From NCBI RefSeq assembly GCF_026586675.1, contig NZ_JAODIX010000001.1, positions 139,139 to 183,530 of the forward strand: a stretch of DNA of 44,392 nt, read 5' to 3'. The notes under the pieces are model-generated. The model was not told where the DNA came from, did no database searches, and was given only the letters and a program-made list of their open reading frames with translations. The DNA is from Halorubrum yunnanense. Lineage in GTDB: Archaea > Halobacteriota > Halobacteria > Halobacteriales > Haloferacaceae. The position numbers were made by a program, and so were the translations under genes. This document shows, one piece after another, positions 4,736-43,416 of this stretch (position 1 is its first letter; every line of letters begins with the position of its first letter).

Positions 4736-7078
4736 CTACTCCACGCGAACCGTCCGCGCGGCCCTGACGGGCATCAGCGGCAGGTCGGGGAAGACGGCCT
4801 CGACGACGAACGCCAGTTCGTCGGCGTCGGGCGGCCCGAACACGCCGACCGGGACCGTCGTCTCCCCGTCGAGGTACGTCGTCGTCGCGGTCATCTCCAC
4901 GTCGTTGACGGTGACCCGGATTCCCGTTCGAGCGCTCCCGGAGACGGTCGAGACCGCGACCTCGCACATGTCGTTTTCGCCCGCCGCGATCGCGTCTGGG
5001 AAGTCGCCCCAGTCGACGTCGATCCGGGGGCAGTCGCGGGCGGCGTCGACGATCCGCTCGGCGACAGAACCGCTCATCCCGGCGTTCTCGAGGGCGCTTG
5101 AGCCGGCGTCGACCACGGCGGCGGGGGAGGTGAGCCCGGCGTCCGCGAGCCGCTCCGCGCGGCCGGAGCCGACTCCGTCGATCGCGGTGAGTGCGACCGC
5201 CTCCCGCGAGACGCCGTGTTCGACGCGCGCCTCGACGCGGCACGCGAGGTTCGCGGCGCGCGGGCCGGCGAACCGGTCGAGGAACTCCGAGAGCGCGGCG
5301 ATCAGGCGGAGCGCGTTCTGTCGGATCACCCACGCGTCCGACCGCAGGTCCGAGGGGATCGAGTCCGCCATCCCGGCGAGCAGGATGGCGAACACCTTGC
5401 GGTGGCCGTCCTCCAAGTCGGTGTCGTGGCCGTCGAGGATGCGATCTATCGCGTCCGACTCGGCCGACCGCGCCGAGACCGAGTCGAACTCGCCGGCCGA
5501 GGCGACGGCTTCGAGGATACGGTCGACCGTCAGCGTCTCGCGGTCGGCCAGCTGCCGGAAGCGACGGGCGGTGTCCAGCCGGAGGTAGTACTTCGAGGCG
5601 AGCCGACCGAGCCCCGTCGGCTCGATCGCGAGGTCGTCGTCGGCCGCGACGAAGCCGTCGTCGACGAGCGAGTCGAGGGTGTCGCGCACGCGGTCGCGGA
5701 GGGTGCCGAACTCGTACTCGTCCGGTTTCGACTCGGCGCGGACGTAGTAGAAGGTCGTCTCCAGCCACTCCATCACGTCTTCGAGCCCGCGGATCGTCCC
5801 CATCGCGATCTCCGCGTTGAGGTGCGACTCGAGTTCCGCGGCGAGCCGGGACTCGATCTCTTTGCCCTGCTTCAACAGCTTCCGGTACTTGTCGGCGTCC
5901 GCTCGGTCGCAGACCACCCAGCCGTACCCCACGTCGTCGTAGCCGGGGCGACCCGCGCGCCCGAGCATCTGGAGGACGTCGAGCGGCGAGATGTCCGTCT
6001 CCCCCTCCAGCGGGTCGTGGTACTTCGTGTCACGGATGACGACGCAGCGCGCCGGGAGATTCACCCCCCACGCGAGCGTCGACGTCGAGAAGAGCAGCTT
6101 GATCTTCCCCTGTTTGAACCACTCCTCGACGCGGTCGCGGTCCCCCTTCCCGAGCCCGGCGTGGTGGAAGCCGACGCCGTCGGTGACCGACTGCCGGAGC
6201 GTGTCGTTGGTTAGCCCCTTGGCCTCGTTGTGGAAGTCGTAGTCGTCCCGCGAGTCGATCGGGATGTCGCGGTCGGTTATCTCGTCGCGCGCCTTCTTGG
6301 CCGCCTGCACCGTGTCCTGCCGCGAGGAGACGAACACGAGTGCCTGCCCGTCCTCGCGCACGTGCGGCTCCGCTAGGTCGAGCGCGCGGTAGAGCCGCCG
6401 GTACTTGTCGGCGAAGGCGTTCGAGCCGTGCGAGTACGTCTTCACGTCCGTTTCGAGGTCGACCGGCCGGTACTCGTCGCCGAACTCGTAGGTCGTCTCC
6501 GCGGGCGCGTCGAGCCACTCGGCGACGTCGGCGACGTTCGGCATCGTCGCCGAGAGCGCGACGACGCGCGGGTCCTGTAAGCGGCGGAGCCGCGAGACCG
6601 TCACCTCCAGCACCGCGCCGCGCTTCTCGCTGTCGAGGAGGTGGACCTCGTCGATGACGACGCAGTCGACGTCGGTGATAAACGAGTAGCGCGCGGAGTC
6701 GTGTTTCCGCGTCGCGCTGTCGGCCTTCTCCGGGGTCGTCACGAGCACGTCCGCGCGCTCCGCGCGGCGGGGGTTGAGGTCGCGCTCGCCGGAGACGACG
6801 TAGACGGAGTAGCCCAGCTCCTCGAAGCGCTCCCACTCGCTCTCCTTCTCGTTGGTGAGCGCGCGGAGCGGGGCGACGAAGAGGGCAGTTCCCCCCTCGG
6901 AGAGGGTCTTGCAGATCGCGAGCTCGGCGAGCGCGGTCTTCCCGGAGGCCGTCGGCGCGGAGGCAACGACGTTGTGATCGGTCTCCAAGATCCCCGGTAA
7001 CGCCTCCCGTTGCATCCGGTTGAACTCCTCGAACCCGAAGGCGTCGGCGAACTCCGGCACCGCGTCCGCGACCTTCAC
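4736..7078 (-). CDS. Hel308-like superfamily 2 DEAD/DEAH helicase
   Basis: This is a 780-residue ATP-dependent helicase of the Ski2/Hel308-like group. With the GTG start at 7078 the motifs are: FNRMQREAL at 19-26, Walker A APTASGKT at 41-48, DEVH at 143-146, SATMPN near 176-181, STSTLAWGVNLPA near 331-343 and QMLGRAGRPG at 370-379. A winged-helix region and a helix-hairpin-helix-like segment (TAIDGVGSGRAERLADAGL) follow, then a C-terminal beta-rich tail. Hel308 relatives unwind forked DNA during replication restart. The exact role here is inferred. An ATG 26 codons upstream (7156) is open, but homologues begin at the (M/V)KVADAVPEF segment. It is divergent from the TRAM gene, with 186 bases between them. 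Confidence 0.88.
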   Translation of the reverse strand: MKVADAVPEFADAFGFEEFNRMQREALPGILETDHNVVASAPTASGKTALAELAICKTLSEGGTALFVAPLRALTNEKESEWERFEELGYSVYVVSGERDLNPRRAERADVLVTTPEKADSATRKHDSARYSFITDVDCVVIDEVHLLDSEKRGAVLEVTVSRLRRLQDPRVVALSATMPNVADVAEWLDAPAETTYEFGDEYRPVDLETDVKTYSHGSNAFADKYRRLYRALDLAEPHVREDGQALVFVSSRQDTVQAAKKARDEITDRDIPIDSRDDYDFHNEAKGLTNDTLRQSVTDGVGFHHAGLGKGDRDRVEEWFKQGKIKLLFSTSTLAWGVNLPARCVVIRDTKYHDPLEGETDISPLDVLQMLGRAGRPGYDDVGYGWVVCDRADADKYRKLLKQGKEIESRLAAELESHLNAEIAMGTIRGLEDVMEWLETTFYYVRAESKPDEYEFGTLRDRVRDTLDSLVDDGFVAADDDLAIEPTGLGRLASKYYLRLDTARRFRQLADRETLTVDRILEAVASAGEFDSVSARSAESDAIDRILDGHDTDLEDGHRKVFAILLAGMADSIPSDLRSDAWVIRQNALRLIAALSEFLDRFAGPRAANLACRVEARVEHGVSREAVALTAIDGVGSGRAERLADAGLTSPAAVVDAGSSALENAGMSGSVAERIVDAARDCPRIDVDWGDFPDAIAAGENDMCEVAVSTVSGSARTGIRVTVNDVEMTATTTYLDGETTVPVGVFGPPDADELAFVVEAVFPDLPLMPVRAARTVRVE

Positions 7079-7762: not shown

Positions 7763-10700
7763 ATGGCTCAGGCCGGGAATCAGGACCTCACGGAGCGGTT
7801 CATTCAGTTCTACCGTAACTACTACCGCGAGGAGATCGGCACCCTCGCGCAGCGATACCCCAACGAACAGCGCTCCCTGTACATCGATTACGACGACCTG
7901 TTTCAGTTCGACCGCGACCTCGCGGACGACTTCCGCACGAAGCCGGACCAGATGCGCGAGTACGCCGAGGAGGCGCTGCGGCTCTACGACCTCCCCGCCG
8001 ACGTCAGCCTCGGTCGCGCGCACGTCCGCATCGAGAACCTCCCCGAGAGCGTCGACATCCGCGGCATCCGCGTGCACGACGACCACATCGGGAAGCTCGT
8101 CTCGGTCAAGGGAATCGTCCGCAAGGCGACCGACGTCCGCCCGAAGGTGACCGAGGCGGCCTTCGAGTGTCAGCGCTGCGGCACGATGACGTATATCCCC
8201 CAGAGCGACGGCGGCTTCCAGGAGCCGCACGAGTGTCAGGGCTGCGAGCGACAGGGCCCCTTCCGCGTCAACTTCGACCAGTCGGAGTTCATCGACTCCC
8301 AGAAGCTCCGCATTCAGGAGTCGCCGGAGGGGCTCCGCGGCGGCGAGACGCCGCAGTCGCTTGACGTCGACATCGTCGACGACATCACCGGGAAGGTGAG
8401 CCCCGGCGACCACGTCACCTGCGTCGGCGTCCTCCACATCGAGCAGGTCGAGCAGGGCAACGAGAAGTCCGCCATCTTCGACCTGTACATGGACGGCGTC
8501 TCCATCTCCATCGAGGACGAGGAGTTCGAGGACATGGACATCACCGAGGCGGACAAACGCGAGATCATCGAGCTCTCCAACCGTGACGACATCTACGAGG
8601 CGATGGTCAGCTCCATCGCGCCCGCCATCTACGGCTACGAGGAGGAGAAGCTCGCGATGATCCTCCAGCTCTTCTCCGGCGTCACCAAACACCTCCCCGA
8701 CGGGTCGCGGATCCGTGGCGACCTCCACATGCTCCTGATCGGTGACCCTGGTACGGGTAAGTGCCAAAAATTTGATACTAAAGTGACACTAGCCGACGGG
8801 TCTGAACAGGCAATCGGGAATATAGTAGAATCAAGCCTCGAGGAGCCGATAGAGGTTGACGACGGAGTGTACGAACCGGTTGATATTGACGTTCAAACCG
8901 TAACGGAAGCGGGAGAAGTCGAGACTGGGACCGCAACAAAAGTCTGGAAACGAGAAGCGCCGGATGAGATGTACCAGATTACGATGGCCTCGGGGCGAGA
9001 GGTAGAAGTGACGCCATCACACCCTCTGTTCAAACAGTTGGACAGAGGATTGTCTCCACAGCGAGCGGATCAATTGGCGGAAGGAGATCTCATTGCCGTC
9101 CCCGAAAATATCGACGCGGATTGGAACGATTCGCTTGACGTTTCGTTCCAGCGGGTCGAAACCTACAACGCGAATTCCTTCACCCCTCCCAGTCAGATCG
9201 ACCCCGCACTGGCGCGGCTTCTCGGCTACATCATTGCTGAGGGCCACACCCATATTTCGGGATCAAGCGCCGCTACCGCGATCACGAACGTCGACGAAGA
9301 GATCCTGACGGACGTGGAACACTGCTTCCGGGAGTTGGGTGTTCGGTGGTCCCGCCGGGATAAACAGGACCACGAAACCGCCGAGATTGTCAGCTGCTCT
9401 TCGTTGGAGTTCGTCCGGTTCCTGAGAGAACTCGAACCGGCGATTCTCGAGACTTCTGAGGATCAGCTCGTACCCAGTTGTCTTAAACGAGCGAGTCCAA
9501 AAAACAAGGCAGCATTCCTACAGGCGTACGTTGACAGCGAGGGAACTGTCTCGCCAAAGGAACGCGAGATCACAGTTTCCTCGATGAGCAGAGAATTGCT
9601 AGCAGGTGTACAGACACTGCTTGTTGCGTTTGGTATCCAGAGCCATCTCCGGAGACGGCACAACGACAGCTATCGACTGCACATCAGTGGACGGGATTTC
9701 GTCAAATACGTCGACGAAATTGGGTTCGTTACCGATCGCAAAACGACGGCCTCGCGAGCGTTCGAGGACGTTCCAGAGAACACAAACACGGACGTGATCC
9801 CCGGACTGAGTGACGACCTCCGGCGGATTCGCGAGGCGCTCGCGTTGTCGCAATTCGATATCGGACTGCCGCGTCCGACGTATCAACACTACGAACGTGG
9901 CGACAGAAACCCGAGTAGATCGAGTCTGAGAGCGGTTGTCGACACGTTCGAAACTCGCTTGGACTGGCTTCGCGAGAAGCGCGGAGAGCTGCTGGACGGC
10001 GACTGGCAGGGAGTCGAGACACTGCGGAAGGAACTGAACATCTCTCAGAAGATGCTCTCGGAGGGTATGGACGTCTCTCAAACCGCGATCAGCTACTACG
10101 AGCGGAACGACGTCGCTCCCGACGGTGGACAGACCGCGGACGCAAAGGACGTGATTTTGGATCGTCTCGATGAGGCCTTATCGGTCGCCCAAGATGTCTC
10201 CGAACTCGATCGTCTGTGTGCGAACGACGTTCACTGGGACCGGATCGAGTCGATCGAGTCGGTCGATCCGGATTACGAGTGGGTCTACGATCTCGAGGTC
10301 GCAGACACGCATACGTATCTCGGAAACGGCGTCGTCTCCCATAACTCCCAGATGATTTCGTATGTAGAAAATATCGCGCCCCGCTCGGTGTACACCTCCG
10401 GGAAGGGCTCGTCCGCGGCTGGGCTCACGGCTGCAGCCGTAAGGGATGACTTCGGCGACGGCCAGCAGTGGTCGCTCGAAGCCGGCGCGCTCGTCCTCGC
10501 AGACAAAGGGATAGCCGCTGTCGACGAGCTAGATAAGATGGATTCGGCGGACCGGTCGGCAATGCACGAAGGGTTGGAACAGCAGCAGATCTCCGTCTCG
10601 AAGGCGGGGATCAACGCGACGCTGAAGGCGCGGTGTTCCCTCCTCGGCGCCGCGAACCCGAAGTACGGCCGGTTCGACCAGTACGAGCCGATCGGCGAGC

Positions 10701-11449
10701 AGATCGACCTCGAACCCGCGCTCATCTCGCGGTTCGACCTGATCTTCACGGTGACGGACACTCCCGACCCGGAGCACGACTCTCGGCTGGCGAAACACAT
10801 CATCAAGACGAACTACGCCGGCGAGATCAACACCCAGCGGACGGAGTTGGCGAGCTCGGAGTTCACTTCGGACGAGGTGGCGGAGGTGACTCAAGAGGTC
10901 GCCCCGGAGATCGACTCCGAGCTGCTCCGGAAGTACATCGCCCACGCGAAGCGGTCCTGTTACCCGACGATGACGGAAGAGGCGAAGGAGCTGATCGAGG
11001 AGTTCTACGTCGACCTGCGTTCGAAGGGCGCCGACGAGGACGCCCCGGTACCCGTCACCGCACGGAAGCTGGAGGCGATAGTGCGGCTCGCGGAGGCGAG
11101 CGCCCGGCTCCGGCTCTCGGACACCGTCGAGCGCGAGGACGCGGACCGCGCGACCGACATCGTTGAGTCTTGTCTCAAGGACATCGGTATCGACCCGGAG
11201 ACCGGACAGTTCGACGCCGACGTGGTGGAGACGGGCACCTCCAAGAGCCAGCGCGACCGCATCAAGAACATCAAGGCGCTCATCGCCGATATCGAAGAGG
11301 AGTATCAGGAGGGCGCGCCCGTCGACGAAGTGCTCGACCGCGCCGGCGAGATCGGGATGGACTCGGGAAAGGCCGAAGCGGAGATCGAGAAGCTCCGGAC
11401 GAAGGGCGAAGTGTACGAACCCAAGCAGGGCCATCTCCGAACGACGTAG
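7763..11449 (+). CDS. mcm: MCM replicative DNA helicase with an in-frame intein
   Basis: MCM forms the hexameric replicative helicase that unwinds DNA ahead of the fork. The 1228-residue precursor has about 700 extein residues, the normal haloarchaeal length. The N-terminal OB domain carries a zinc motif (CQRC near residue 135, CQGC near 159). The AAA+ Walker A GDPGTGK-S is split by the intein after residue 333. Walker B (AAVDELDKMD) is near precursor residue 920 and the arginine finger SRFDLIF near 990. A C-terminal winged helix ends the protein. Activity needs intein splicing, because the P-loop is incomplete in the precursor. The next gene starts directly after the stop codon, suggesting co-transcription. 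Codons next to the intein are AT-richer than the rest of the gene. Confidence 0.97.
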   Translation: MAQAGNQDLTERFIQFYRNYYREEIGTLAQRYPNEQRSLYIDYDDLFQFDRDLADDFRTKPDQMREYAEEALRLYDLPADVSLGRAHVRIENLPESVDIRGIRVHDDHIGKLVSVKGIVRKATDVRPKVTEAAFECQRCGTMTYIPQSDGGFQEPHECQGCERQGPFRVNFDQSEFIDSQKLRIQESPEGLRGGETPQSLDVDIVDDITGKVSPGDHVTCVGVLHIEQVEQGNEKSAIFDLYMDGVSISIEDEEFEDMDITEADKREIIELSNRDDIYEAMVSSIAPAIYGYEEEKLAMILQLFSGVTKHLPDGSRIRGDLHMLLIGDPGTGKCQKFDTKVTLADGSEQAIGNIVESSLEEPIEVDDGVYEPVDIDVQTVTEAGEVETGTATKVWKREAPDEMYQITMASGREVEVTPSHPLFKQLDRGLSPQRADQLAEGDLIAVPENIDADWNDSLDVSFQRVETYNANSFTPPSQIDPALARLLGYIIAEGHTHISGSSAATAITNVDEEILTDVEHCFRELGVRWSRRDKQDHETAEIVSCSSLEFVRFLRELEPAILETSEDQLVPSCLKRASPKNKAAFLQAYVDSEGTVSPKEREITVSSMSRELLAGVQTLLVAFGIQSHLRRRHNDSYRLHISGRDFVKYVDEIGFVTDRKTTASRAFEDVPENTNTDVIPGLSDDLRRIREALALSQFDIGLPRPTYQHYERGDRNPSRSSLRAVVDTFETRLDWLREKRGELLDGDWQGVETLRKELNISQKMLSEGMDVSQTAISYYERNDVAPDGGQTADAKDVILDRLDEALSVAQDVSELDRLCANDVHWDRIESIESVDPDYEWVYDLEVADTHTYLGNGVVSHNSQMISYVENIAPRSVYTSGKGSSAAGLTAAAVRDDFGDGQQWSLEAGALVLADKGIAAVDELDKMDSADRSAMHEGLEQQQISVSKAGINATLKARCSLLGAANPKYGRFDQYEPIGEQIDLEPALISRFDLIFTVTDTPDPEHDSRLAKHIIKTNYAGEINTQRTELASSEFTSDEVAEVTQEVAPEIDSELLRKYIAHAKRSCYPTMTEEAKELIEEFYVDLRSKGADEDAPVPVTARKLEAIVRLAEASARLRLSDTVEREDADRATDIVESCLKDIGIDPETGQFDADVVETGTSKSQRDRIKNIKALIADIEEEYQEGAPVDEVLDRAGEIGMDSGKAEAEIEKLRTKGEVYEPKQGHLRTT
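8762..10345 (+). other. Intein in MCM (P-loop site) with DOD endonuclease and two HTH segments
   Basis: The intein is 528 residues, precursor 334-861. It starts with Cys (CQKFDTKVTLADGSE) right after GDPGTGK and ends VVSHN, followed by extein Ser, so splicing restores GDPGTGKSQM. Block B is TPSHPLF and block F is YDLEVADTHTYLGNGVVSHN. The endonuclease of the LAGLIDADG type has LLGYIIAEG (intein residue about 153) and FLQAYVDSEG (about 252). Its acidic residues are E and E rather than the usual D, which leaves cleavage activity uncertain. After it, about residues 347-457, two Xre-like helix-turn-helix segments occur (ALSQFDI..PTYQHYERG and NISQKMLSEGMDVSQTAISYYER). The intein DNA is clearly less GC-rich than the extein. 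Confidence 0.95.
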
Positions 11450-26065: not shown

Positions 26066-26138
26066 GGGCGCGTAGCTCAGCGGACAGAGCACTTGGTTCC
26101 GGACCAAGATGCCGCGGGTTCAAATCCCGTCGCGCCCG
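26066..26138 (+). tRNA. tRNA-Arg (anticodon CCG)
   Basis: This 73-base cloverleaf has an acceptor stem GGGCGCG/CGCGCCC with discriminator G. The D arm is GCTC..GAGC, the anticodon stem CTTGG/CCAAG holds the loop TTCCGGA (anticodon CCG), and the T arm is GCGGG-TTCAAAT-CCCGT. CCA is not encoded. There is no intron. The upstream GCGTTAAACGC at 26032-26042 may include its promoter. Its 3' end is the integration target of the elements that follow: copies of it recur at 37779, 38824 and 43402. Confidence 0.97.
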
Positions 26139-26140
26139 TT
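26124..26140. other. Attachment site inside tRNA-Arg (left end of element A)
   Basis: ATCCCGTCGCGCCCGT at 26124-26139 is the 3' end of the tRNA plus one base and is repeated exactly at 37779-37794. A 14-base part recurs at 38824, and a 15-base part with the following T (26126-26140) at 43402. Integration by a tyrosine recombinase into the 3' end of a tRNA leaves the tRNA intact, as seen here. Confidence 0.85.
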
Positions 26141-26318
26141 CCTTCGCTTCGCTCAGCCACGGGCGCGACTGGCTCCACGCTCGCTCACTCCGTTCGCTCG
26201 CGTGGATCCCGTCGCTTTCTGTCCCTTTTGAAAGAATGCATCCGACCATATTTGATCGGGCGTGGATGCTCTCCCTCGCAGGAGGGTTTTTGTTCAGCCG
26301 TGAAAACCTCGATCTTGA

Positions 26319-30666: not shown

Positions 30667-32115
30667 TTGACATCCTCCTCCGGCTAAAACCGGAGGAATC
30701 CCGAGCGTTGGGATATTACGGTTTACAGTCTTCTCGTTCTCTCGGTGTGAACCGTCCGCTCTCGCGGTCGAACAGGAAGACTCTGGGCTGTGCCAACCAG
30801 CCGTTACTCATATCCTCTGTCGGGGGACTCTGAGTTATCTTTCGCCGGATGTTTACTGCACCGTTTACGTCTGCGTTCATCGTCGTCTCGCACGACGAAC
30901 AAACGTACAGACCACGCTCCACTCGGTTGCTGTCACGAATCTGTCCGCAACACGAACACGTCTTGCTCGTGTTCTCCTCGTCTACACGGTCAACGAGGAT
31001 ACCGTGTTCCTCGGCTTTGTATTCGAGGAGATGAGCGAATCGGTCGAACTCCCAACCGTGGAGTTTCTTGTTCCCTGACGCACCCCAGTTCCGCGAATCG
31101 CCCTTTTCATCCTCGCGGATGTAGCTGAGGTCGCCAACCGCAATCTTCCCCACTCCTTCTTCGACACACCGTTCAACGATGTGTTTCGAGAGTGTGTGAA
31201 GGAAGTGGTCTTTACGCCGAGAGAGTTTCTGCCGAGCCTTCCGCGCACGCTTCGACGGCCCACTTTCCCCTTCGGTTTGGTACTCCTCGCGGGTGAAGTA
31301 GTGCTTGTCCTCTTTCAGCACGTTCCCCGGATACAGTTCACTCGCCCCATCTTCGTAGTCGATGGCGAGGTAGTTGCTGATGCCGAGATCGATCCCTGCC
31401 GTGTTGTCGCCGGGTGCGTTTTCGACTGGAATTTCTTTCTTACAAACGAGGTGGAGTTCCCACCTGTCTCCGTTCCAGACGGCACGCACCTGCTGGATGT
31501 TCTCGACTTCTACGTCGGGTCGGGTTTCGTACTCCGCGAGGATGAAGTCAGACCGCGACTCTTTCAGGTTGAAGCCCTTCGAGAGGCGAAGTTGGCCGTG
31601 TTTCGTGTCGTGCTTGATGGCCCGTTTCTTCCACGTGACGGTGGAGCGCGGGTGGTCGTCGCCACGTTTCCGGTAGCCCGGTGGGCTGTTGCCGTCGTCG
31701 GAGTTGTACCAGCCGACGAACGCCTCAGCAAGCTCTTCGAGAACTCGCTGACTTGACTGCGAATGTAGGTCACTGTAGCGTTCGTGGTCTTTCAACTCCG
31801 ACTTCAATTCGGCTTCGTCAGGTATCTCACCGGTTTTGTCCCACCGTTGTTGGATGTAGTAGCGTCCGACGTTCCACAGTTTGGATGTAGAGAACCCACA
31901 CTGGTCGAGGCCATCACGAACCTGTTGGTGGTTCGTGATGCCTGCGACGTAGGTGCGGGTCGTCTCTAACATCGTACTAACTTCATAACACATTATGTAA
32001 CAATATAAATTAAAACCAACGACTGGGCGTTGAATATCCGGCTGGAGTGTCGTCGTGGATTGGCGGTCAGAGTGTCGGATTCATCCCGCGCCTTTAGGCG
32101 CGGGTATTCTCCTCG
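30667..32115 (-). mobile_element. IS200/IS605-group element carrying only tnpB
   Basis: About 1.45 kb inserted in the DUF4268 gene. No tnpA is present. Hairpins mark the ends. At the tnpB 3' side CCTCCGG and CCGGAGG (30677-30696) surround a 6-base loop. At the 5' side CCCGCGCC and GGCGCGGG (32085-32104) surround TTTA. The exact ends are not certain to the base. They are set by where the host frame stops and resumes. As in other members of the group there is no visible target-site duplication. Confidence 0.8.
30716..31972 (-). CDS. tnpB: TnpB, RNA-guided nuclease of the IS200/IS605 group
   Basis: This 418-residue protein starts MLETTRTYVAGITNHQQVRDGLDQCG, as haloarchaeal TnpB proteins do. The RuvC motif I Asp is in AGIDLGISNYLAI. 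The zinc finger is CSCCGQIRDSNRVERGLYVCSSCE, and the RuvC III Asp is in MNADVNGAVNI. At RuvC II the usual catalytic Glu (EDL) is Gly in IAVGDLSYIRED. Acidic residues follow a few positions later. TnpB proteins cut DNA guided by an RNA made from the element's right end, overlapping the 3' end of this gene (about 30665-30830). I use ATG 31972. A further in-frame ATG at 31993 adds seven residues. Confidence 0.9.
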   Translation of the reverse strand: MLETTRTYVAGITNHQQVRDGLDQCGFSTSKLWNVGRYYIQQRWDKTGEIPDEAELKSELKDHERYSDLHSQSSQRVLEELAEAFVGWYNSDDGNSPPGYRKRGDDHPRSTVTWKKRAIKHDTKHGQLRLSKGFNLKESRSDFILAEYETRPDVEVENIQQVRAVWNGDRWELHLVCKKEIPVENAPGDNTAGIDLGISNYLAIDYEDGASELYPGNVLKEDKHYFTREEYQTEGESGPSKRARKARQKLSRRKDHFLHTLSKHIVERCVEEGVGKIAVGDLSYIREDEKGDSRNWGASGNKKLHGWEFDRFAHLLEYKAEEHGILVDRVDEENTSKTCSCCGQIRDSNRVERGLYVCSSCETTMNADVNGAVNIRRKITQSPPTEDMSNGWLAQPRVFLFDRESGRFTPREREDCKP

Positions 32116-35378: not shown

Positions 35379-35891
35379 CTATCGAGTGTCGCAGACACAG
35401 ACGCCGCCTTCCCGTATCTGGTCCGTGACGTACTGGTGAACGCTGCGAGAGAGTGCATACATACTATCTGCTTGCTTCTCCGTGGGCCGCTTGCCGCCAT
35501 AATAGCTGTCCGTTCGGTTATCATCGTACAGTCCCCGAAGCTCTCGTGTCGCCGGCCGCGAGAGCAGACCGAGCTCCACCGCTCGGTCGTAACAGTGCGT
35601 GTGGTCGTGGAAGTCGTCCAGCTCGTCACCACCGACTGCGAGGGCATAGGCCTCGATAGACCGCTCGGTTGCTCCGAAGCAAAGTTCGATGACAGCGGTG
35701 TAATGTCCTTCTCCGTTGATCCGTGCGACCGCATCCAGCAGCCGACACGCCTTCGTGAGCTGTGTCTTCCACTCGTCGTCGGTCGCGATCGCGTCCTCGC
35801 GGTTCGGGACCCCGAACCCCTCCTCGTTGAACGCGTCGATAGCCGCATCGAGAGCTGTTCTGATATCCCGCGGATCGGACTCCTCACTCAT
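35379..35891 (-). CDS. HEPN-like protein, likely toxin of an MNT/HEPN pair
   Basis: This 170-residue all-helical protein starts MSEESDPRDIRTALDAAIDAFNEEGFG. It follows the nucleotidyltransferase gene with an 8-base overlap (start ATGAGTGA), so the two are coupled. The segment YTAVIELCFGATERSIEAYALAVG and the Arg/His-rich tail resemble HEPN domains. The RNase motif R-x4-6-H is not clear. RSVHQY near the C-terminus is only a weak candidate. In known MNT-HEPN pairs the HEPN RNase is the toxin and the MNT enzyme disables it by AMP transfer. The pairing is strong. The toxin role is inferred. Confidence 0.68.
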   Translation of the reverse strand: MSEESDPRDIRTALDAAIDAFNEEGFGVPNREDAIATDDEWKTQLTKACRLLDAVARINGEGHYTAVIELCFGATERSIEAYALAVGGDELDDFHDHTHCYDRAVELGLLSRPATRELRGLYDDNRTDSYYGGKRPTEKQADSMYALSRSVHQYVTDQIREGGVCVCDTR

Positions 35892-36576
35892 CGAGATCAC
35901 CGTGGAAAACCATGCTCCGGACCGTCTGGAACTTCTCCGTCTCGTGAATTACGATCCCGTCGCTGAGTACCTCCCGTATCTCGGCGATGTACTTTGGGAC
36001 CGCCTGAAGCGCCTCAACGTCTATCTCGTACTCGTACCGGCCGTTCTCAAACTCCTCGTCTTCGAGTGCCTGTTTGACCTGATTCGCCGCTCGCTGGTTT
36101 GCCATCCGATCTTCCTCGACGAGCACCCAAAGATCGATATCGCTCCGCCGGTCCGCTTCGCCTCGCGCGACGCTACCGTACAGAACGATCCCGATCACGC
36201 TGTCGAGTTCGCCGTGGAGTTCGGTTGCTGCTGCTCTCACCGGTTCTTGAAACTCGGCCTGAGGAATCTGTAGATAGGGGTCGTCCGGGACGTGGAGCCG
36301 CTCCTGGTTGATACGAACCCATCGCGTGTTGCCCTCGCGTCGTTCGACGACGAGATCGTTTTCGGAGAGTACGGTTACCGCCTTGGAGACGCTCGGCTGC
36401 GAATAGTCCACTGCCTCAACGAGGTCACTAATCGAGAACTCCTCAGTGTGGTGGCGACATAAAAAAGAGAGAACTGTATCTGTGGCCGTACTACCGAATA
36501 ATTCTCCGCTTTTGGCCGGTATAGCGAGAAGTATCTGTAACCCGTCTTCGGCCTCAATATTCGAGCTACTTTTCAT
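35884..36576 (-). CDS. HTH-fused MNT nucleotidyltransferase, likely antitoxin
   Basis: This is a 230-residue two-domain protein. Residues 33-90 form a winged helix (TDTVLSFLCRHHTEEFSISDLVEAVDYSQPSVSKAVTVLS). Residues 120-200 are a minimal nucleotidyltransferase (IGIVLYGSVARGEADRRSDIDLWVLV) with GS-x3-G at 134-139 and Asp-x-Asp at 146-148. In MNT/HEPN systems the MNT enzyme AMPylates and neutralises the HEPN toxin. The fused DNA-binding domain could let it repress its own operon. A minus-strand CTTATAAAG at 36608-36616 lies upstream at about the right distance for a promoter. It is co-transcribed with the HEPN-like gene downstream. Confidence 0.82.
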   Translation of the reverse strand: MKSSSNIEAEDGLQILLAIPAKSGELFGSTATDTVLSFLCRHHTEEFSISDLVEAVDYSQPSVSKAVTVLSENDLVVERREGNTRWVRINQERLHVPDDPYLQIPQAEFQEPVRAAATELHGELDSVIGIVLYGSVARGEADRRSDIDLWVLVEEDRMANQRAANQVKQALEDEEFENGRYEYEIDVEALQAVPKYIAEIREVLSDGIVIHETEKFQTVRSMVFHGDLDE

Positions 36577-36683: not shown

Positions 36684-37694
36684 CTAGATGTCGTCGAGGT
36701 ATCCTCTCCGTTGTTCCATCTTCTCTTTCTGCGAGCGCTGGTCGTAGTGCTGGTCGATAACGTCGGCCGTCACGTTCGCCCGGTCGCCGACCACCGTCTC
36801 GGGCACGTCGCTCTGTAGGTAGTGCGTGATAGCGCCACGACGGAACGGATGCGGACTGACGCTAGACGGACACTTCGATGCTGCGCGACTTATCGTGGCC
36901 TCACAATCGGCCGGTTCACGGTCGTGTGGACATGCTTGGCCGTACTCGCACGGACGGGACATTCGGTAGCATTTCATCCGAAAACTAGACTTTGAAATTC
37001 GGCCGCCGCTCGTCGTGAGAAGCGGGTTCCGGCCGTGGTCATCCGTGACATCGAGCCGCCGCTCCCGGATCCAGTCGTCGAGGACGAGACAGACCTCGTT
37101 CGAGACGGCGATGATCCGTTCGCCTTCTCGCTTGTTCTTGAGTGGCGTGTCGGTATCGGGCCGATGCCGGAGTCGGAGGGACTGCTCTTCGGGGTCGTAA
37201 TCTTCGACATCAAGCGCTCTCACCGAACCCATCCGAAGCATCGTGTGCCACAGGATCTTCGCGATCACGTGGTGAAGCGACGCGTACTCGTATCTCTCGA
37301 GGTACGTCAGTAGTTCCTCTGCGTCCTCGGTCTCGAGCATCACGTCGCGACTGTTCTCTCGGGGCGTGATATCGGGCGAGCGGACCTTCTTGTGGAGGTC
37401 CTGTTCGACGGCGTCGATTGACTCCAGCCACTTCACGAAAACGCGTAGCGTGTCCATCTGCGTCTTCTCGCTCACCTTCGTGAGATCGCCGACGTTTCGA
37501 CGCCAGAGCCGGAACTCCTGAAGCCGCCGGCCGGTCAGCTTGTTCAGGTTTTCGATGTCGCGTTCCTCACACCACCGGAGCAGGAAGCTCCGGCGTGACT
37601 TGTGAGAGGCGACGGTCGCGTCCGCGACCGAGGTCTCTTTCTCCGCGATATACAGCTCGAATGCCGTTTCGGGGTCGATTGGTTCGAGTTCCAT
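36684..37694 (-). CDS. Tyrosine site-specific recombinase, integrase 2
   Basis: This 336-residue integrase starts MELEPIDPETAFELYIAEKETSVADATVASH (ATG 37694, the second start in the frame). The catalytic Arg is in RMGSVRALDVEDYD, HxxR is HPFRRG, and the nucleophile Tyr is in DQHYDQRSQ. The Cys-rich insert CEYGQACPHDREPADCEA matches integrases 1 and 3. It ends KMEQRRGYLDDI. Its start lies 85 bases inside the attachment copy at 37779, the usual place for a tRNA-integrase, so it is probably the recombinase of element A. Confidence 0.93.
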   Translation of the reverse strand: MELEPIDPETAFELYIAEKETSVADATVASHKSRRSFLLRWCEERDIENLNKLTGRRLQEFRLWRRNVGDLTKVSEKTQMDTLRVFVKWLESIDAVEQDLHKKVRSPDITPRENSRDVMLETEDAEELLTYLERYEYASLHHVIAKILWHTMLRMGSVRALDVEDYDPEEQSLRLRHRPDTDTPLKNKREGERIIAVSNEVCLVLDDWIRERRLDVTDDHGRNPLLTTSGGRISKSSFRMKCYRMSRPCEYGQACPHDREPADCEATISRAASKCPSSVSPHPFRRGAITHYLQSDVPETVVGDRANVTADVIDQHYDQRSQKEKMEQRRGYLDDI

Positions 37695-37778
37695 GGTTCG
37701 ATCGGTCTCGAACCACACGAAGACGCGGCCTTCGACACCCGTTCAGCGAATCACCAACTTTTCCGAGTCGAGGGCCGT

Positions 37779-37794
37779 ATCCCGTCGCGCCCGT
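37779..37794. other. Attachment site, element A/B junction
   Basis: ATCCCGTCGCGCCCGT is an exact 16-base copy of the 3' end of tRNA-Arg (26124-26139) in the same orientation. Integrase 2 starts 85 bases to the left. A long repeat shared with the next junction begins at 37781. Confidence 0.85.
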
Positions 37795-37948
37795 ATCGTT
37801 CTAATCGGATGACTGCGTCGGGGTAGACACCGCAATACTGCGAGGCGTATGCTTTCGTTCGACAGGTGACCGTCCACGGATGCATTAGTGGGGTTCGCGT
37901 ACACCCAAACAGGACGCAGTAGAGAAAATCAATCGCTGATTGACCCAT
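37781..37948. repeat. 168-bp direct repeat, copy 1 (start of element B)
   Basis: Aligns with 38824-38991 with no insertion or deletion and at about 85 percent identity by eye. It begins with the attachment core. It contains the words CGCAATACTGCGAGGCG, GCTTTCGTTCGA, GTGACCGTCCACGGATGCAT and CAAACAGGACGCAGTAGAGAA. On the minus strand an open frame runs from ATG 37948 (MGQSAIDFLYCVLFGCTRTP). Confidence 0.85.
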
Positions 37949-38031
37949 CCACCTCGCTTGATCGGAGAGACGGTCTCGAATTCGACGGGATCCAACTACT
38001 GTCTGGAGAAGATCCAGTCAGTACAAGGCAC

Positions 38032-38172
38032 TTATTCGTCTTCGAGGGCGTCGTAGACGTCCCGGTTCGCATCTCGGTCGTTCGCCGCGACCCGTCGGAC
38101 CAGTTCCCGCCGGATGTCCTCCATCACGTCGTCAATCGGAGAGGTCGTCTCTGCTCCTTCTTCGGTGGCCAT
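38032..38172 (-). CDS. 46-residue protein following the Doc-like gene
   Basis: MATEEGAETTSPIDDVMEDI, then RRELVRRVAANDRDANRDVY, then DALEDE. It is acidic, mostly helical, and starts 25 bases after the Doc-like stop codon on the same strand. Size, charge and position suit an antitoxin or other partner. In the classic phd-doc order the antitoxin comes first, so the order here is reversed, and the sequence does not resemble Phd. No other candidate antitoxin is in element B. Assignment as antitoxin is an inference. Confidence 0.6.
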   Translation of the reverse strand: MATEEGAETTSPIDDVMEDIRRELVRRVAANDRDANRDVYDALEDE

Positions 38173-38197
38173 GCCTGAACGGACGCTTCGAACGCGG

Positions 38198-38686
38198 TTA
38201 ATCGTTCGGGTCCGACGAATCGCCGGTCAGCCGGTCCAGCCCGTACCGGACGAGTTCGTCTCGCCACTCATCGTTCTCACCGGCCAGATCCAGCTCCTCG
38301 GTGTGGGATCGCAGATACTCGGTAGTATCCTCCTCATCGACGGCCGCTTCGTCGGTGCCGAACTCTTTCAGGATCGTTCTCACTTCGTTGTCGTACTCGA
38401 ACCGGTACCCGTTGAGGAAGTAGAAGACGACCGTCACATTGAGTGCAGTTCGTTTGTTCGCATCGACGAAGGGGTGGTTAGCGACGAGGAGCCGGAGGAG
38501 GTGATACGCTTTCTCGTGGATGGTGTCCGGTCCGGAACCGAAACTGCCCTCTTCGATGTAGTTCAACGCGAACTCGATGTCACCACGCGATCGAACACCG
38601 ACGGGAGTATCGGGATACTCCGCGACGACGTCGTCGTGGATGGTGACGACGTCTTCGACGGACGGGTACCACAACGGGTCGGCCAT
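38198..38686 (-). CDS. Doc-like Fic-fold toxin
   Basis: This 162-residue protein has a Fic/Doc motif HPFVDANKRTAL at residues 71-82. The Lys in place of Gly (ANKR) is the Doc variant, which in bacteriophage P1 phosphorylates elongation factor EF-Tu and stops translation. Another Doc hallmark is the N-terminal helix WYPSVEDVVTIHDDVV and HEKAYHLLRLLVANHPF. The C-terminal about 45 acidic residues are a haloarchaeal extension. It is the only sizeable gene of the short element B. A 14-bp dyad lies just upstream in the promoter. The archaeal target is unknown; the archaeal elongation factor is the obvious candidate. Confidence 0.88.
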   Translation of the reverse strand: MADPLWYPSVEDVVTIHDDVVAEYPDTPVGVRSRGDIEFALNYIEEGSFGSGPDTIHEKAYHLLRLLVANHPFVDANKRTALNVTVVFYFLNGYRFEYDNEVRTILKEFGTDEAAVDEEDTTEYLRSHTEELDLAGENDEWRDELVRYGLDRLTGDSSDPND

Positions 38687-38703
38687 TCGCTCTGGCGTCG
38701 GTG

Positions 38704-38717
38704 CTACACCAGTGTAG
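38704..38717. promoter_or_regulatory. 14-bp dyad in the Doc promoter
   Basis: CTACAC-CA-GTGTAG is a perfect 6-bp-arm palindrome, 18 to 31 bases upstream of the Doc-like start. On the minus strand AAAATCTACA overlaps it and may be the TATA region. A protein bound here would block transcription, as in autoregulated toxin-antitoxin operons. Confidence 0.5.
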
Positions 38718-38772
38718 ATTTTGTCATCGCCGGCTGAACGATGTCTGATATCACCGTTTCAATGACGTCGAT

Positions 38773-38810
38773 TTCGACCGTCTCACACCTGAAAGGTCTA
38801 GTCGTTCGAC
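38773..38810. repeat. 38-bp fragment similar to the SWIM gene start
   Basis: Matches 40017-40054 at 34 of 38 bases with no gaps. In the SWIM copy it encodes FDRLTPEMSSRST. Here it ends 14 bases before the attachment copy. It looks like a broken copy of the same gene's start. Confidence 0.6.
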
Positions 38811-38823
38811 AGTCGAACCAGCG

Positions 38824-38837
38824 CCCGTCGCGCCCGT
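38824..38837. other. Attachment site, element B/C junction
   Basis: CCCGTCGCGCCCGT, 14 bases identical to the tRNA-Arg 3' end. The two bases to its left differ (GG-type instead of AT). It starts the second 168-bp repeat. Confidence 0.8.
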
Positions 38838-38991
38838 ATCGTCATAATCGCATGACGGCGGCGGGGTAATTGCCGCAATACTGCGAGGCGCGTGCTTTCG
38901 TTCGATGGGTGACCGTCCACGGATGCATCAGTGGGGTTTGCGTACATCCAAACAGGACGCAGTAGAGAAGATCAATCGCTGATTGGCTCAT
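38824..38991. repeat. 168-bp direct repeat, copy 2 (start of element C)
   Basis: Gap-free counterpart of 37781-37948. On the minus strand the frame starts at ATG 38991 (MSQSAIDLLYCVLFGCTQTP) and keeps the same protein pattern as copy 1, then stops at CGATTATGA before the attachment core. Confidence 0.85.
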
Positions 38992-39139
38992 CTATACTGA
39001 GTGATCCGTACTTCACCTGTATCGGTTGCGGTCGGGTCTGACGGTACCACCAGCTGAGGATCTCAACAGGTTCTTGAATTTCGTAGTGAATGGACCTGCA
39101 AGCTCCTCGGAATACTTAGCGTATCCTCGCGGGCAACTG

Positions 39140-39571: not shown

Positions 39572-39886
39572 ATGGAGAAGCCGTCGGTGAAATGTGCCCT
39601 CTTGGCGACGATGATAGCGAAACACAAGTGGGGCACACCGATCACGGAGGAGGCACTCCTCAATCTCTCAGCGATCGACGGCGACTATCCTACTGCGCGA
39701 GATGTCTACGCCGACCTTCGCCGCGAACCCTACATCACCTACCGCGGAAACCGCGGTATCGAACTCAACAAGAGCCGCTTCGACAAACTCGCCGATGTCC
39801 TCTACCACGAGTGTGGCTGGGAAGCGTGGGAGATCGACAGTCGTCTGAAGCACTACGAGGGTATCGAGGAGCACGATTGGAAGTGA
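39572..39886 (+). CDS. Hypothetical protein divergent from the winged-helix regulator
   Basis: This 104-residue protein reads MEKPSVKCALLATMIAKHKWGTPITEEALLNLSAIDGDYP, then TARDVYADLRREPYITYRGNRGIELNKSRFDKLADVLYHEC. It is mixed alpha/beta with a helix-turn-helix-like middle, and there is no membrane segment. Codon use fits the accessory region. I do not recognise a function. It may be a regulator or partner of the adjacent gene pair because the two are transcribed divergently from a shared control region. Confidence 0.6.
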   Translation: MEKPSVKCALLATMIAKHKWGTPITEEALLNLSAIDGDYPTARDVYADLRREPYITYRGNRGIELNKSRFDKLADVLYHECGWEAWEIDSRLKHYEGIEEHDWK

Positions 39887-40037
39887 CCCCGCTATACTGA
39901 ACGAGCTAGCTCCCGCTGAGCCGGAGAGGCCGATACGAGATGTGGGCTCTGTATCTCGCACGGATCGTATAGAGTGTTAACTTAGTTGTCAGAAAGGCGG
40001 TTTTGAACCAGCCGCATTCGACCGCCTCACGCCTGAA

Positions 40038-40733
40038 ATGTCCAGTCGTTCGACGTACGACGTGCGTGTTGACCTCTCAGCCGAGGGGTTCGATCCGTGG
40101 TGCGACTGCCCGTACGACGGATCGAAGGCGTGTAAGCACGTTGTCGCCGTGTTAGTTCGGTGTGCCGACGACGTTCTGAGGGACGAAGGCGACCGGCTTG
40201 ACGCCACGCTCGACGCCGCGGATACGGACAATCTTCGGGTCTTCTTCGGGGAGACGCTGGCGACCGACGCTGCCATCGGTGAACGCTTCTTCGCCCCTTT
40301 CGGTGAATCGTCGACGCGGTCGGTCACCGACCTGCGCGCTGCGATCGACCGGCAGTTCGAGGAGACGAATCCCGACTACCTCGTCGTCTTCGAACCGATC
40401 AACTTCTCGGAATGGTTCGACCTCGCGAGCGAGTATCGCGATCAGGGACGGTACGCGTCGGCAGCGGCAGTGTATCGTGCCCCCGTCGAATCGCTCGACG
40501 GCAACATGGAACGTGTCGACGAGGCGTACGAGCACTTCTCGCAGGCATTCAAGCGAGCGCTCCACGGGCATGTCGACTGCGTGACGGCCGGAGATATCGA
40601 CGCTGACGAGGCCGCCGACGCCGTCGCGTTCCTCAGGGAGCGGCCGGCACCCGGGACGCCGTTGCTCGGCGAGTGCTTTGAGCACGCAGCGGCGAAGTTA
40701 GAGGAAACGCTCACTGAGCGGCGAGAGCATTAA
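40038..40733 (+). CDS. SWIM zinc-finger protein, N-terminally shortened
   Basis: The protein has 231 residues from ATG 40038. The SWIM motif is at residues 22-34 (CDCPYDGSKACKH: C22, C24, C32, H34). Related haloarchaeal proteins begin with an FDRLTPE-like segment followed by an additional N-terminal region before the SWIM motif. Here FDRLTPEM is encoded just before the ATG, and VDLSAEGFDPWCDC follows almost at once, so the front part seems deleted. The C-terminus is helical (SEYRDQGRYASAAAVYRAPVESLDGNMERVDEAYEHFSQAFKRAL), resembling TPR-like repeats. SWIM fingers bind DNA or proteins. Function here unknown. Confidence 0.7.
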   Translation: MSSRSTYDVRVDLSAEGFDPWCDCPYDGSKACKHVVAVLVRCADDVLRDEGDRLDATLDAADTDNLRVFFGETLATDAAIGERFFAPFGESSTRSVTDLRAAIDRQFEETNPDYLVVFEPINFSEWFDLASEYRDQGRYASAAAVYRAPVESLDGNMERVDEAYEHFSQAFKRALHGHVDCVTAGDIDADEAADAVAFLRERPAPGTPLLGECFEHAAAKLEETLTERREH

Positions 40734-40770: not shown

Positions 40771-42162
40771 TCACTCTCCGAGCGCGGCAACAATGTCGTC
40801 GATCGTATAGAGACGTACATCGTCACGTCCGGCAGCGGCTTCGCGGACGCTATCGGTAAACCCGCTCCGGGAGAACAGCGCGTATTCGACCGTTCGCGTG
40901 CTACCGCCCGACGGCTGCCACCGGAGTTCCTCGACATGCGTCTCCAGTGAGCCAAGTGCGCTGTAGTCGAGTGGCGATTCCTGATACTTGCACTCACCGA
41001 CGACGAGCGTTTGCTCGTCGGTGAGTCCGACAACGTCGATCTCGTGGTCCTGATACCACCACTGTCCGACATCGACGATCGGTGTCTCGCCGTACAGCGT
41101 CCACAGGGCCTCACAACACAGCTGTTCGAAGGCGGGAGCGACGAAGTCAGCCAACTCCGGTTCGACGAGCCGTTCGTAGGCGTCGTCGCCAAACTGGTCG
41201 TAGCGATCCGAACTCCCGTACAGGAACCGGAACCAGAACCGGAACAAAGGGTCACGCAGCCGATACTGGCTTCGCTTGGATCGCTCCGGCTTCTCCGTCA
41301 CCGGCACGTGCCGTTCGATGAGCCGAAGCCGAGAAAGTCGATCCAAATACGTCGATAGCTGGTTGTAGTCGATACCCGTCACACCGGCGATCTCGTTCCG
41401 TCCGGTCGCCCCGCCGGCGATCGCTTCGAGGATCGAGAAGTAGCGCGTCGGCTCTGTCAGCTCCATACGAAGAACGTACTCCGGTTCGTTACGGAGCGAT
41501 CCGTGATGAGTCAGCACCGTCTGCTGAATGTTCTCGCTGAGTGATCTGTCGGCGTCAACTTCTTCGAGGTAGTAAGGAACGCCACCGAACACACTCCACG
41601 CACGCAGGGCCTCGTCCGGTGTCACACCGTCTGGTAAAAACTCCGTCGCGGCGTCGAACGAAAGTTCACGGATGTCGAGGGTAAGGGATGTTCGCCCATA
41701 TAGCGGGCTGTCTCCAAGCAGAGTCGCTTCCTCCATCATGCTGATCGACGATCCGACCAGAACGAACGTCGTCTCCGACTCGTCGAACTTGTGATCGAAC
41801 AACGCCTGTAACACTGACGGGAGGCTCTCGTCCTGTTCGATCAGGTATGGGAATTCGTCGAGGACGACGATCGCATTTTGCTCGGCGAGATACCTGAACA
41901 GCCGCTCCCAGTCGGGCCGAATGTCTTCGATGCCGGGAAACGTCTCGGCTGCGGCCTCGATGAACTGTTCCAGTTGAAGCTCTCGCGTCTTCTGTCGTGC
42001 CTGATAGAAGACTGTGTTCGCCTGTCTCTCAAGCGCCTTCTTTACGAGTCTCGTTTTCCCCAGCCGTCGCCGTCCGTACACGACCGCGAGGTCTGCGCTC
42101 CCCGAGTCGAAGAGATCGTAGAGTCGATCCAGCTCCTCCGATCGGTTCACGAAGTTTACCAT
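40771..42162 (-). CDS. Archaeal AAA ATPase with C-terminal DUF234 nuclease-like domain
   Basis: This 463-residue protein has an archaeal ATPase (PF01637-type) N-terminus with Walker A YGRRRLGKTRL at about 29-39 and Walker B AIVVLDEFPYL near 118. A winged helix follows (AIAGGATGRNEIAGVTGIDYNQLSTYLDRLSRLRLIERH). The C-terminal DUF234 domain (about 330-460) carries DHEIDVVGLTDEQTLVVGECKYQES, the D..ExK pattern of PD-(D/E)xK nucleases. The family is widespread in archaeal mobile regions, but its function is not settled. Four 15-bp repeats (42192-42251) sit right upstream of its start, suggesting tight regulation. ATG 42162. Confidence 0.88.
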   Translation of the reverse strand: MVNFVNRSEELDRLYDLFDSGSADLAVVYGRRRLGKTRLVKKALERQANTVFYQARQKTRELQLEQFIEAAAETFPGIEDIRPDWERLFRYLAEQNAIVVLDEFPYLIEQDESLPSVLQALFDHKFDESETTFVLVGSSISMMEEATLLGDSPLYGRTSLTLDIRELSFDAATEFLPDGVTPDEALRAWSVFGGVPYYLEEVDADRSLSENIQQTVLTHHGSLRNEPEYVLRMELTEPTRYFSILEAIAGGATGRNEIAGVTGIDYNQLSTYLDRLSRLRLIERHVPVTEKPERSKRSQYRLRDPLFRFWFRFLYGSSDRYDQFGDDAYERLVEPELADFVAPAFEQLCCEALWTLYGETPIVDVGQWWYQDHEIDVVGLTDEQTLVVGECKYQESPLDYSALGSLETHVEELRWQPSGGSTRTVEYALFSRSGFTDSVREAAAGRDDVRLYTIDDIVAALGE

Positions 42163-42191: not shown

Positions 42192-42251
42192 ATATTCTGA
42201 ATAATCATATTCCAGAATATCATATTCCGGGATATCATATTTGAGTATATT
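42192..42251. repeat. Four 15-bp tandem palindromic repeats upstream of the ATPase-DUF234 gene
   Basis: Units at 42192, 42207, 42222 and 42237: ATATTCTGAATAATC, ATATTCCAGAATATC, ATATTCCGGGATATC, ATATTTGAGTATATT. The period is exactly 15. Unit 2 contains the perfect dyad ATATTC-CA-GAATAT. The array starts 30 bases upstream of ATG 42162, where archaeal box A would be. It looks like a multi-site operator or iteron array. Confidence 0.75.
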
Positions 42252-42289
42252 ATAATGGATAGTGACGAGCAGTGATCGGTGAGCGCGTC

Positions 42290-43299
42290 TCAGATGTTGT
42301 CGAGATACCCTCGGCGCTGCTCCATTTTCTCATCTGACTCCGTCGGTCGTAGTGCCCGTCGAGAACTCCTGGCGTCACGTCCGCAGGATCGCTGACGACA
42401 TCTTTCGGAACACCATTGCTTAGGTGGTGAGTGATTCCACCACGTCGAAGAGCGTGTGGACTGACGTTCGAGGGGCAGTCGAACGCGGCAGTATACGCCA
42501 TCGCGTCACAATCGTCTGGATCACGGTCATGCGGGCACTCTCCAGTGGAAACGCAGGGCCTTGTGTACCTGTAGCCATCCCCCCGAAGCGTCGATCGGTG
42601 CGTGCGTCCCTTCGACGTTGACACGAGTGGTCGCCTGCCGAACTCGTCGTCTACATCGGGTCGCTGATTGGCTATCCAGTTGTCGATAAGCCCGCACACC
42701 CTGTTCGATAACGCGATCAGCCGCTCTCTATCTCCTGCATTCTTGATTGTCGCTCCGGTCTCAGGTCGATGGACGACAGCGATGTATTGCCCGTCTGAAT
42801 CGTAGTCGTTGACGCCGAGCGAGTGGACCGCACCGGTCCGCATCATCGTGTGCCACATCAGCGTGAGCACGACGTGAGGGCGTGATGCGTACTCGCACTT
42901 CGAGAGGTACTCGAGAACCTCTTCAGCACGATCGGACTCGAGCATCACGTCGCGGACGTTCTACGGGTCTCGTAACACGGGCGACCGCACCTTCGTGTGG
43001 AGGTCGTCGACGGCGGCGTCGATACTCTCTAACCACTTCACGAAGACGCGAATTGTATCCATCTGGGTCTTCTCCGTGGCGGGTGCGAGACCACCCTCAC
43101 GACGCCGCCACAGACGGTACTCGTGGAGCGTCCGTCCGCTCAGCTTGTTCAGGTTGTCTATGTCCTCCTCGTCACACCAGCGAACGAAGTGACCGAGACG
43201 GGAGCTGTGCGAGTACAGCGTTGCCTTGGCCACCTCGGCTTCGCGATCGGCGAGGTCCAGTTCTACGGCTGTTTCCGGGTCGATTGGTTCAAGACTCAT
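42290..43299 (-). pseudogene. Tyrosine recombinase, integrase 3, broken
   Basis: Homologous to integrase 2 over its whole length: MSLEPIDPETAVELDLADREAEVAKATLYSHSSRLGHFVRW, then the Cys-rich insert CVSTGECPHDRDPDDCDA, HALRRG and HYDRRSQ. Two lesions are visible. An in-frame TAG (42961-42963 on the minus strand) falls in the segment DP-stop-NVRDVMLE. A one-base deletion near 42330 shifts the last codons (homologues read KMEQRRGYLD, and this reading frame leaves it). The attachment copy at 43402 lies about 100 bases before its start, so it once served element C. The catalytic Tyr is still in frame, but the TAG should truncate the protein before the catalytic domain. Confidence 0.9.
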
Positions 43300-43401
43300 C
43301 GCTCTTGGTGGCGCGAGTCGTAGTTACGACCCCGATCTGAAGTCCCTGATTTCAGGCAGTACAGGCCCGAAAAGACGATCCGTTCTCAGTATGAACTCCC
43401 G

Positions 43402-43416
43402 CCCGTCGCGCCCGTT
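43402..43416. other. Attachment site, right end of element C
   Basis: CCCGTCGCGCCCGTT, a 15-base exact copy of tRNA-Arg positions 26126-26140, in the same orientation. It marks the right edge of the array. The sequence beyond does not resemble the DNA to the left of the tRNA. Confidence 0.8.

Follow-up and report, generated by a model that had tools for sequence, protein, structure and literature searches.

A Doc toxin cassette behind a tRNA-Arg gene of Halorubrum yunnanense, a probable non-autonomous member of a haloarchaeal cassette family

How does a unit of about 1 kb, without an integrase gene of its own, come to be bracketed by copies of a tRNA 3′ end? The question is raised by a 44,392-nucleotide stretch of the genome of Halorubrum yunnanense (contig NZ_JAODIX010000001.1, positions 139,139 to 183,530; hereafter the window), in which the 14-nt 3′ end of tRNA-Arg(CCG) stands at either side of element B (37781–38837), whose gene content is only doc and a 46-codon partner. 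The initial annotation of the window had described element B as a Doc-like toxin, a 46-residue partner and terminal sequence, and both the Doc family models and the conservation of the 46 codons bear this out. As argued below, element B is probably a non-autonomous integrative cassette that would be served in trans by an IntC-clade tyrosine integrase. Its parts, together with the tRNA gene that anchors the array, are as follows (att, attachment site; aa, amino acids; dN/dS, ratio of nonsynonymous to synonymous substitution rates):

26066–26138, plus strand: tRNA-Arg(CCG), the array anchor (ARAGORN, Rfam), with the core CCCGTCGCGCCCGT at 26126–26139
37781–37794, plus strand: left att core of element B
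37795–37949, plus strand: left end, about 155 bp past the core, with the inverted repeat TCAATCGCTGATTGA
38032–38172, minus strand: candidate antitoxin of 46 aa, the partner of Doc, 25 bp downstream of its gene and kept in 16 of 16 cassettes (dN/dS 0.12)
38198–38686, minus strand: Doc toxin with the motif HPFVDANKR (TIGR01550, Pfam Fic)
38782–38823, plus strand: right end with the inverted repeat GTTCGACAGTCGAAC (right-end profile, E = 2e-17)
38824–38837, plus strand: core belonging both to element B and to the cassette that follows

The gap-free repeat of about 168 bp, by which the left end of element B had been said to match that of the following element C, was recovered as a direct repeat of 169 nt (37781–37949 and 38824–38992) with 89% identity; a BLAST search of the genome (E = 3e-58) gave no copies other than these two. 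The core CCGTCGCGCCCGT was found at positions 26127 (the 3′ end of tRNA-Arg(CCG)), 37782, 38825 and 43403; since the number of cores is only modestly above that in shuffled sequences, the weight rests on their exact placement at the ends of the repeats. The tRNA was the sole match in an Rfam scan of the window. As in tRNA-associated elements of tyrosine integrases, the core is identical to the tRNA 3′ end and is duplicated on insertion. While the left end was thus correctly recognised in the initial annotation, the conserved right end at 38782–38823 had been missed; a right-end arm of about 42 bp, with the consensus CTCACGCCTGAAAGGTCGATTCGTTCGACAGTCGAACCAGCG, precedes most internal cores. Both arms contain inverted repeats, GTTCGAC-A-GTCGAAC in the right ends and TCAATCG-C-CGATTGA in the left ends, many left ends of the TCG type additionally having the right-end repeat, and these look like protein-binding sites. 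By sequence, the unit is a left arm of about 170 bp and a right arm of 42 bp arranged around the 3′-terminal 14 nt of tRNA-Arg, and this pair of ends recurs across haloarchaea behind tRNA-Arg genes, in tandem rows, around many unrelated cargos that mostly lack an integrase.

The extent of this family was evaluated in 392 genomes of the host's order and in a sample of 295 genomes of the phylum. The 169-bp query matched 52 of the 392 genomes, full-length matches being mostly from Halorubrum, beginning at the tRNA core and often occurring in pairs 1–3.5 kb apart. A profile built from the left-end copies also detected the left end at tRNA-Arg(TCG), with the core CCTGCAGCGCCCAT, in other families, and a model of sequence alone, built from 28 left ends, matched 122 of the 392 genomes at E ≤ 1e-4, the weak matches of which may partly reflect the tRNA core. 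No match to this model was seen outside the order, all 13 matching genomes of the phylum sample belonging to it (the share of the sample lying outside the order was not recorded). Two matches in metagenome-assembled genomes of Bacteroidales, both to one exact motif, the seven other stretches being haloarchaeal, were set aside as chance for a short pattern in 257 Gb.

Left and right ends together delimit 46 cassettes, distributed over 32 loci at tRNA-Arg(CCG) and tRNA-Arg(TCG), a cassette being defined as a left end paired with the next right end; the boundary at 40026 and the left end in L045 were set by hand, and the longer left–right intervals may cover more than one decayed cassette. The loci were chosen for having a left end, and the counts describe this sample rather than all haloarchaea. 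One cassette (L061) begins beyond the edge of its locus sequence, leaving 45 for the integrase count: two contain an integrase of the IntC clade, one contains a 28-aa integrase fragment, and in 42 (31 loci) no integrase was found by tblastn against 12 diverse integrases of the family (E < 0.01). The median length of these 42 is 2.2 kb, and 14 are at most 1.3 kb long. Cargos consisting of a single gene or a gene pair comprise NUDIX, glyoxalase, CHRD, CNNM/CorC, PIN_2 with a partner, DUF5615/DUF433, glycosyltransferase 2 and histidine kinase, and transporters and kinases occur beside Doc and PIN; PADLOC and PHROG scans revealed a mixed, partly defence-like content without a single theme. At least one 3-kb form has been enlarged by insertion (an IS66-type gene in L037). 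The initial annotation had regarded element B as a non-autonomous unit bounded by att sites behind a tRNA gene, with ends common to other units, and had held that varying cargo between such ends would speak for a mobile cassette system, whereas identical flanking genes on both sides of every copy, or its absence from the vicinity of other tRNA genes, would speak against it. The cargo does vary, the flanking genes are not always the same and the left end does recur beside other tRNA genes, all of which supports a cassette system.

Comparison of loci yielded several signs of movement. The order of the units differs by species: element A is followed by the Doc cassette in the window, Doc by the genes of element A in L032, and Doc by C1 (the cassette next to element B in the window) in L034, while L036 has the order A–C1–Doc. 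The Doc cassette, second in L036, is represented by the same sequence directly behind the tRNA in L098 (900 bp, 85% identity), and in L041, from another genus, a solo Doc cassette lies at the tRNA with no integrase alongside. Unoccupied sites were recognised as well, the sequence past the last core of L042 corresponding, from the core onwards, to the sequence past the tRNA in L088, L095 and L080 (408 bp, 80–83%), and that of L044 to L094 (914 bp, 89%) in an alignment that likewise begins at the core. In these alignments the core is the exact point at which an occupied site departs from an unoccupied one.

To move, the integrase-less cassettes at tRNA-Arg genes probably depend on an integrase that related elements encode. 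The neighbours of element B in the window are as follows:

36684–37718, minus strand: intact tyrosine integrase of element A (IntA2; Pfam PF00589, no internal stop), the right end of which is not cassette-type
38838–38992, plus strand: left end of the second cassette, C1
39140–39517, minus strand: helix-turn-helix protein, C1 cargo (weak Pfam matches; C1 also in L034, L036 and L039)
39572–39886, plus strand: 104-aa protein, C1 cargo (93–98% identical in L034, L036 and L039)
40026–40055, plus strand: remnant of the C1 right end, core lost (right-end profile positions 1–30, E = 6e-5)
40038–40733, plus strand: SWIM zinc-finger protein (Pfam PF04434), C2 cargo, its start overlapping the C1 right-end remnant
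40771–42162, minus strand: ATPase_2/DUF234 protein, C2 cargo
42250–43299, minus strand: IntC-clade integrase of C2, with one in-frame TAG; probable helper clade, broken here
43360–43415, plus strand: right end and core of C2

Element C, which had been taken for a single unit, is thus two fused cassettes, C1 and C2, with a coreless right-end remnant at their junction (40026–40055); C2 is a unit of the autonomous type, and its counterpart is present in L033, L038 and L039. Among the integrase-bearing elements that abut cassettes, four kinds were distinguished, and a right end related to that of the cassettes was seen in the IntC kind alone, with z = 6–10 against shuffles when compared with the cassette consensus, the other integrase classes ranging from −0.9 to 0.4. 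The integrases of element A were therefore rejected as helpers, their right end being unrelated to that of the cassettes (z = −0.9). In other families, homologues of IntC are set back by about 85 bp (170 bp in L137) from a right end and core of the cassette type, right-end matches near IntC reaching E = 1e-16 to 1e-19 in L128, L130, L131, L132 and L137, and in L143 the left end, IntC and the right end form one unit of 6.8 kb. The suggestion that a neighbour with the same ends lends its integrase in trans consequently fails for the intact neighbour IntA2 and retains its force for the IntC clade, which shares the right end and is broken in the window; the likely helper of element B is an integrase of that clade which is encoded elsewhere or was active in the past.

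The route of such cassettes might then be as follows. An IntC-clade tyrosine integrase encoded on longer elements with the same right end would act in trans, excising the cassette as a circle in which right arm, core and left arm constitute the attP site, and the circle would be joined to the 3′ end of tRNA-Arg or, where a cassette is already in place, to its core. In this way cassettes would pile up in rows. Some cassettes appear to derive from decayed integrase-bearing elements, since integrase fragments persist beside a few ends, adjoining them in L040, L067, L068 and L143.

Several points weigh against this reading. Excision and integration are deduced from sequence comparison, no movement having been observed, and the comparisons with unoccupied sites are between species (80–89% identity) rather than between strains. 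The IntC gene of the window is interrupted by an in-frame TAG and IntA2 has a different right end, so that no working helper is visible in the window. Several Halorubrum genomes bearing cassettes are without a close IntC relative, and any helper there would be lost, transient or more distant. The assignment of the helper is drawn from shared ends, and most of the IntC elements examined had a right end and no full left end within the retrieved stretch. Finally, the integrase search covered one family by similarity, combined with a gene-calling filter for cargo, and unrelated recombinases could escape it.

The same observations may be turned into a different account, according to which the cassettes are dead remnants that lost their own integrase by deletion and now merely persist, or recombine homologously through their 170-bp left ends. 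The broken IntC in the window, the integrase fragments beside some ends, the decayed cores with the fused boundary at 40026–40055, and the near-identical tandem left ends in L034 and L040 would all be expected of remnants. Homology of left ends, however, could not place the solo cassettes of L041 and L042, which have nothing but the 14-nt core on either side, nor does decay agree with junctions to unoccupied sites at the core, with the recurrence of the same small cargo types across arrays with intact ends and purifying selection, or with the patchy presence of Doc within the genus; this account is accordingly considered unlikely. It is very improbable that a conserved RNA gene, a regulator or a short coding sequence, recurring by chance and serving as no integration arm, accounts for the 169-bp stretch: the repeat is long and conserved and a minus-strand open frame can be drawn in both copies of the window, but it has no Rfam match, indels of 1–2 nt in the alignment break any common frame, and copies of full length start at the tRNA core and have a right end as partner, whatever the cargo or its orientation. 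Still less credence is given to the unit being a piece of a virus or plasmid. Such integrases are common in haloarchaeal proviruses and plasmids, according to a review (PMC8371274), and the plasmid search returned one weak left-end record, in an 881-kb Natrinema replicon; on the other hand, the left end had no match in 50,697 phage records, one exact left-end motif had none in IMG/VR, and in the small cassettes the ends directly bracket cargo, with no structural or replication genes recognised. A non-autonomous cassette moved by an IntC-clade integrase thus remains the preferred explanation of element B.

With regard to the cargo of element B, the Doc protein (38198–38686, minus strand) scored above the curated cut-offs of both TIGR01550 (64.3 bits versus 38.65) and Pfam Fic (40.1 versus 24) and carries the family motif HxFx(D/N)(A/G)NKR; HPFVDANKR is found in 15 of 16 Doc homologues, with DADKR in L062. 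The doc gene has 162 codons in all 16 homologous cassettes (dN/dS 0.15), and the 46-aa reading frame (38032–38172, minus strand) is intact and exactly 46 codons long in the same 16 (median dN/dS 0.12), a degree of conservation that marks it as a real gene and the pair as cargo under purifying selection. A Phd-type antitoxin upstream of doc, as in type II phd/doc systems, was not found; the sole conserved partner of Doc is the 46-aa protein encoded downstream, without a Pfam or NCBIfam match. Three different cores accompany this pair, at tRNA-Arg(CCG) and tRNA-Arg(TCG), and Doc is patchy in Halorubrum, being matched at E ≤ 1e-20 in 27 of 52 genomes, in some with only 53–58% identity. The pair may help the Doc cassette to persist, other cassettes doing without a toxin; as a general rule, retention by toxin and antitoxin, which had been proposed for element B, is not supported, many cassettes having no such pair (NUDIX, glyoxalase, CNNM, CHRD, glycosyltransferase).

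Other sequences were encountered behind tRNA-Arg(CCG). An 81-bp module with a second core at its end lies directly behind the gene in the window (26139–26219), in L045 (reverse strand, 4627–4789), in L076 and in L085; it is present in two tandem copies in L045, and its second core is decayed in the window. In the first 110 bp behind the tRNA in L072–L101, and in the window from 43416, at least three further sequences recur in Halorubrum (TCACGTTTTCTGACGGGG.., TCACACA..GGATACATAGCAAACC.. and CTTACTCACGAACCGTTTCACG..), which are either other end families or native flanks. Element A contains at 35379–36576 a nucleotidyltransferase gene, with an MntA-antitoxin-like match below the cut-off, adjoining a 173-aa gene, provisionally labelled HEPN as a guess and without NCBIfam match, and at 30716–31993 a 425-aa gene judged by eye to be a putative TnpB. 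The element A integrase has a second copy (85% identity, one in-frame TAG) at G000:C38:104238-105269, on a contig that also has a tRNA match at 109114. Elsewhere in the window, the MCM helicase gene at 7763–11449 has a long insertion resembling, by eye, an intein.

Among known systems, cis-mobilizable elements (CIMEs) are described in PMC5704250 as tandem att-flanked elements without integrase in bacteria, arising by decay and accretion, such as those related to ICESt1 in Streptococcus. The cassettes resemble them in that copies of the att core flank units with no integrase inside, which are stacked with integrase-bearing relatives at one site, and a decay origin may fit some cassettes; the right end is common to IntC elements, and integrase fragments occur in only a few loci. 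They differ from CIMEs in being archaeal, in their size down to about 0.9 kb, in carrying one gene or gene pair with no conjugation genes noticed, and in that one arm pair is reused across many cargos at two tRNA-Arg genes in many families of the order. Haloarchaeal tyrosine integrases acting at tRNA genes, including those of SNJ2-type integrative elements, are known from PMC8371274, in which neither ‘non-autonomous’ nor ‘satellite’ was found. These elements share with the cassettes the type of integrase, a short core in the tRNA 3′ end and haloarchaeal hosts, whereas the known ones, which are viruses or plasmids, encode an integrase themselves. In the open-licence literature, no description was found of an order-wide set of short, mostly integrase-less cassettes that share a single fixed arm pair at two tRNA-Arg genes. 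Tycheposons and other helper-dependent ‘hitcher’ elements are small cargo elements at tRNA genes, some of which depend on others, bacterial as far as known. Hitchers are named in PMC11389934, and the likeness of such elements to the cassettes, as small cargo elements of tRNA genes, is one of description.

The initial annotation had also likened element B to an integron-style unit. Integrons use the integrase IntI and attC sites. No IntI was recognised among the integrases of the window (TIGR02249, 15.4 versus a cut-off of 265; best models XerC/XerD-like), and the site used is a tRNA 3′ end with arms of 170 bp and 42 bp, genes lying in both orientations; a literal integron is therefore not supported (attC sites were not searched for). 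The analogy stands, in that small, promiscuous cassettes of one or two genes are found in rows, with an integrase presumed to act in trans. It is an evenly balanced proposition that haloarchaea possess an order-wide cassette system, anchored at tRNA-Arg genes, that matches an integron in function though it has neither IntI nor attC: cassettes of one gene, with arms that stay constant, would leave as circles and be stacked by IntC-clade tyrosine integrases acting in trans. Were this so, each haloarchaeal lineage would obtain a changing row of accessory genes at tRNA-Arg, which would explain the gathering of unrelated toxin pairs, transporters, regulators and enzymes behind these genes. The signature of two arms and a tRNA-Arg core would allow haloarchaeal accessory genes to be catalogued as discrete mobile cassettes and, with a likely helper integrase clade named, would offer a testable case that genes in archaea circulate much as they do in integrons, though along another path.
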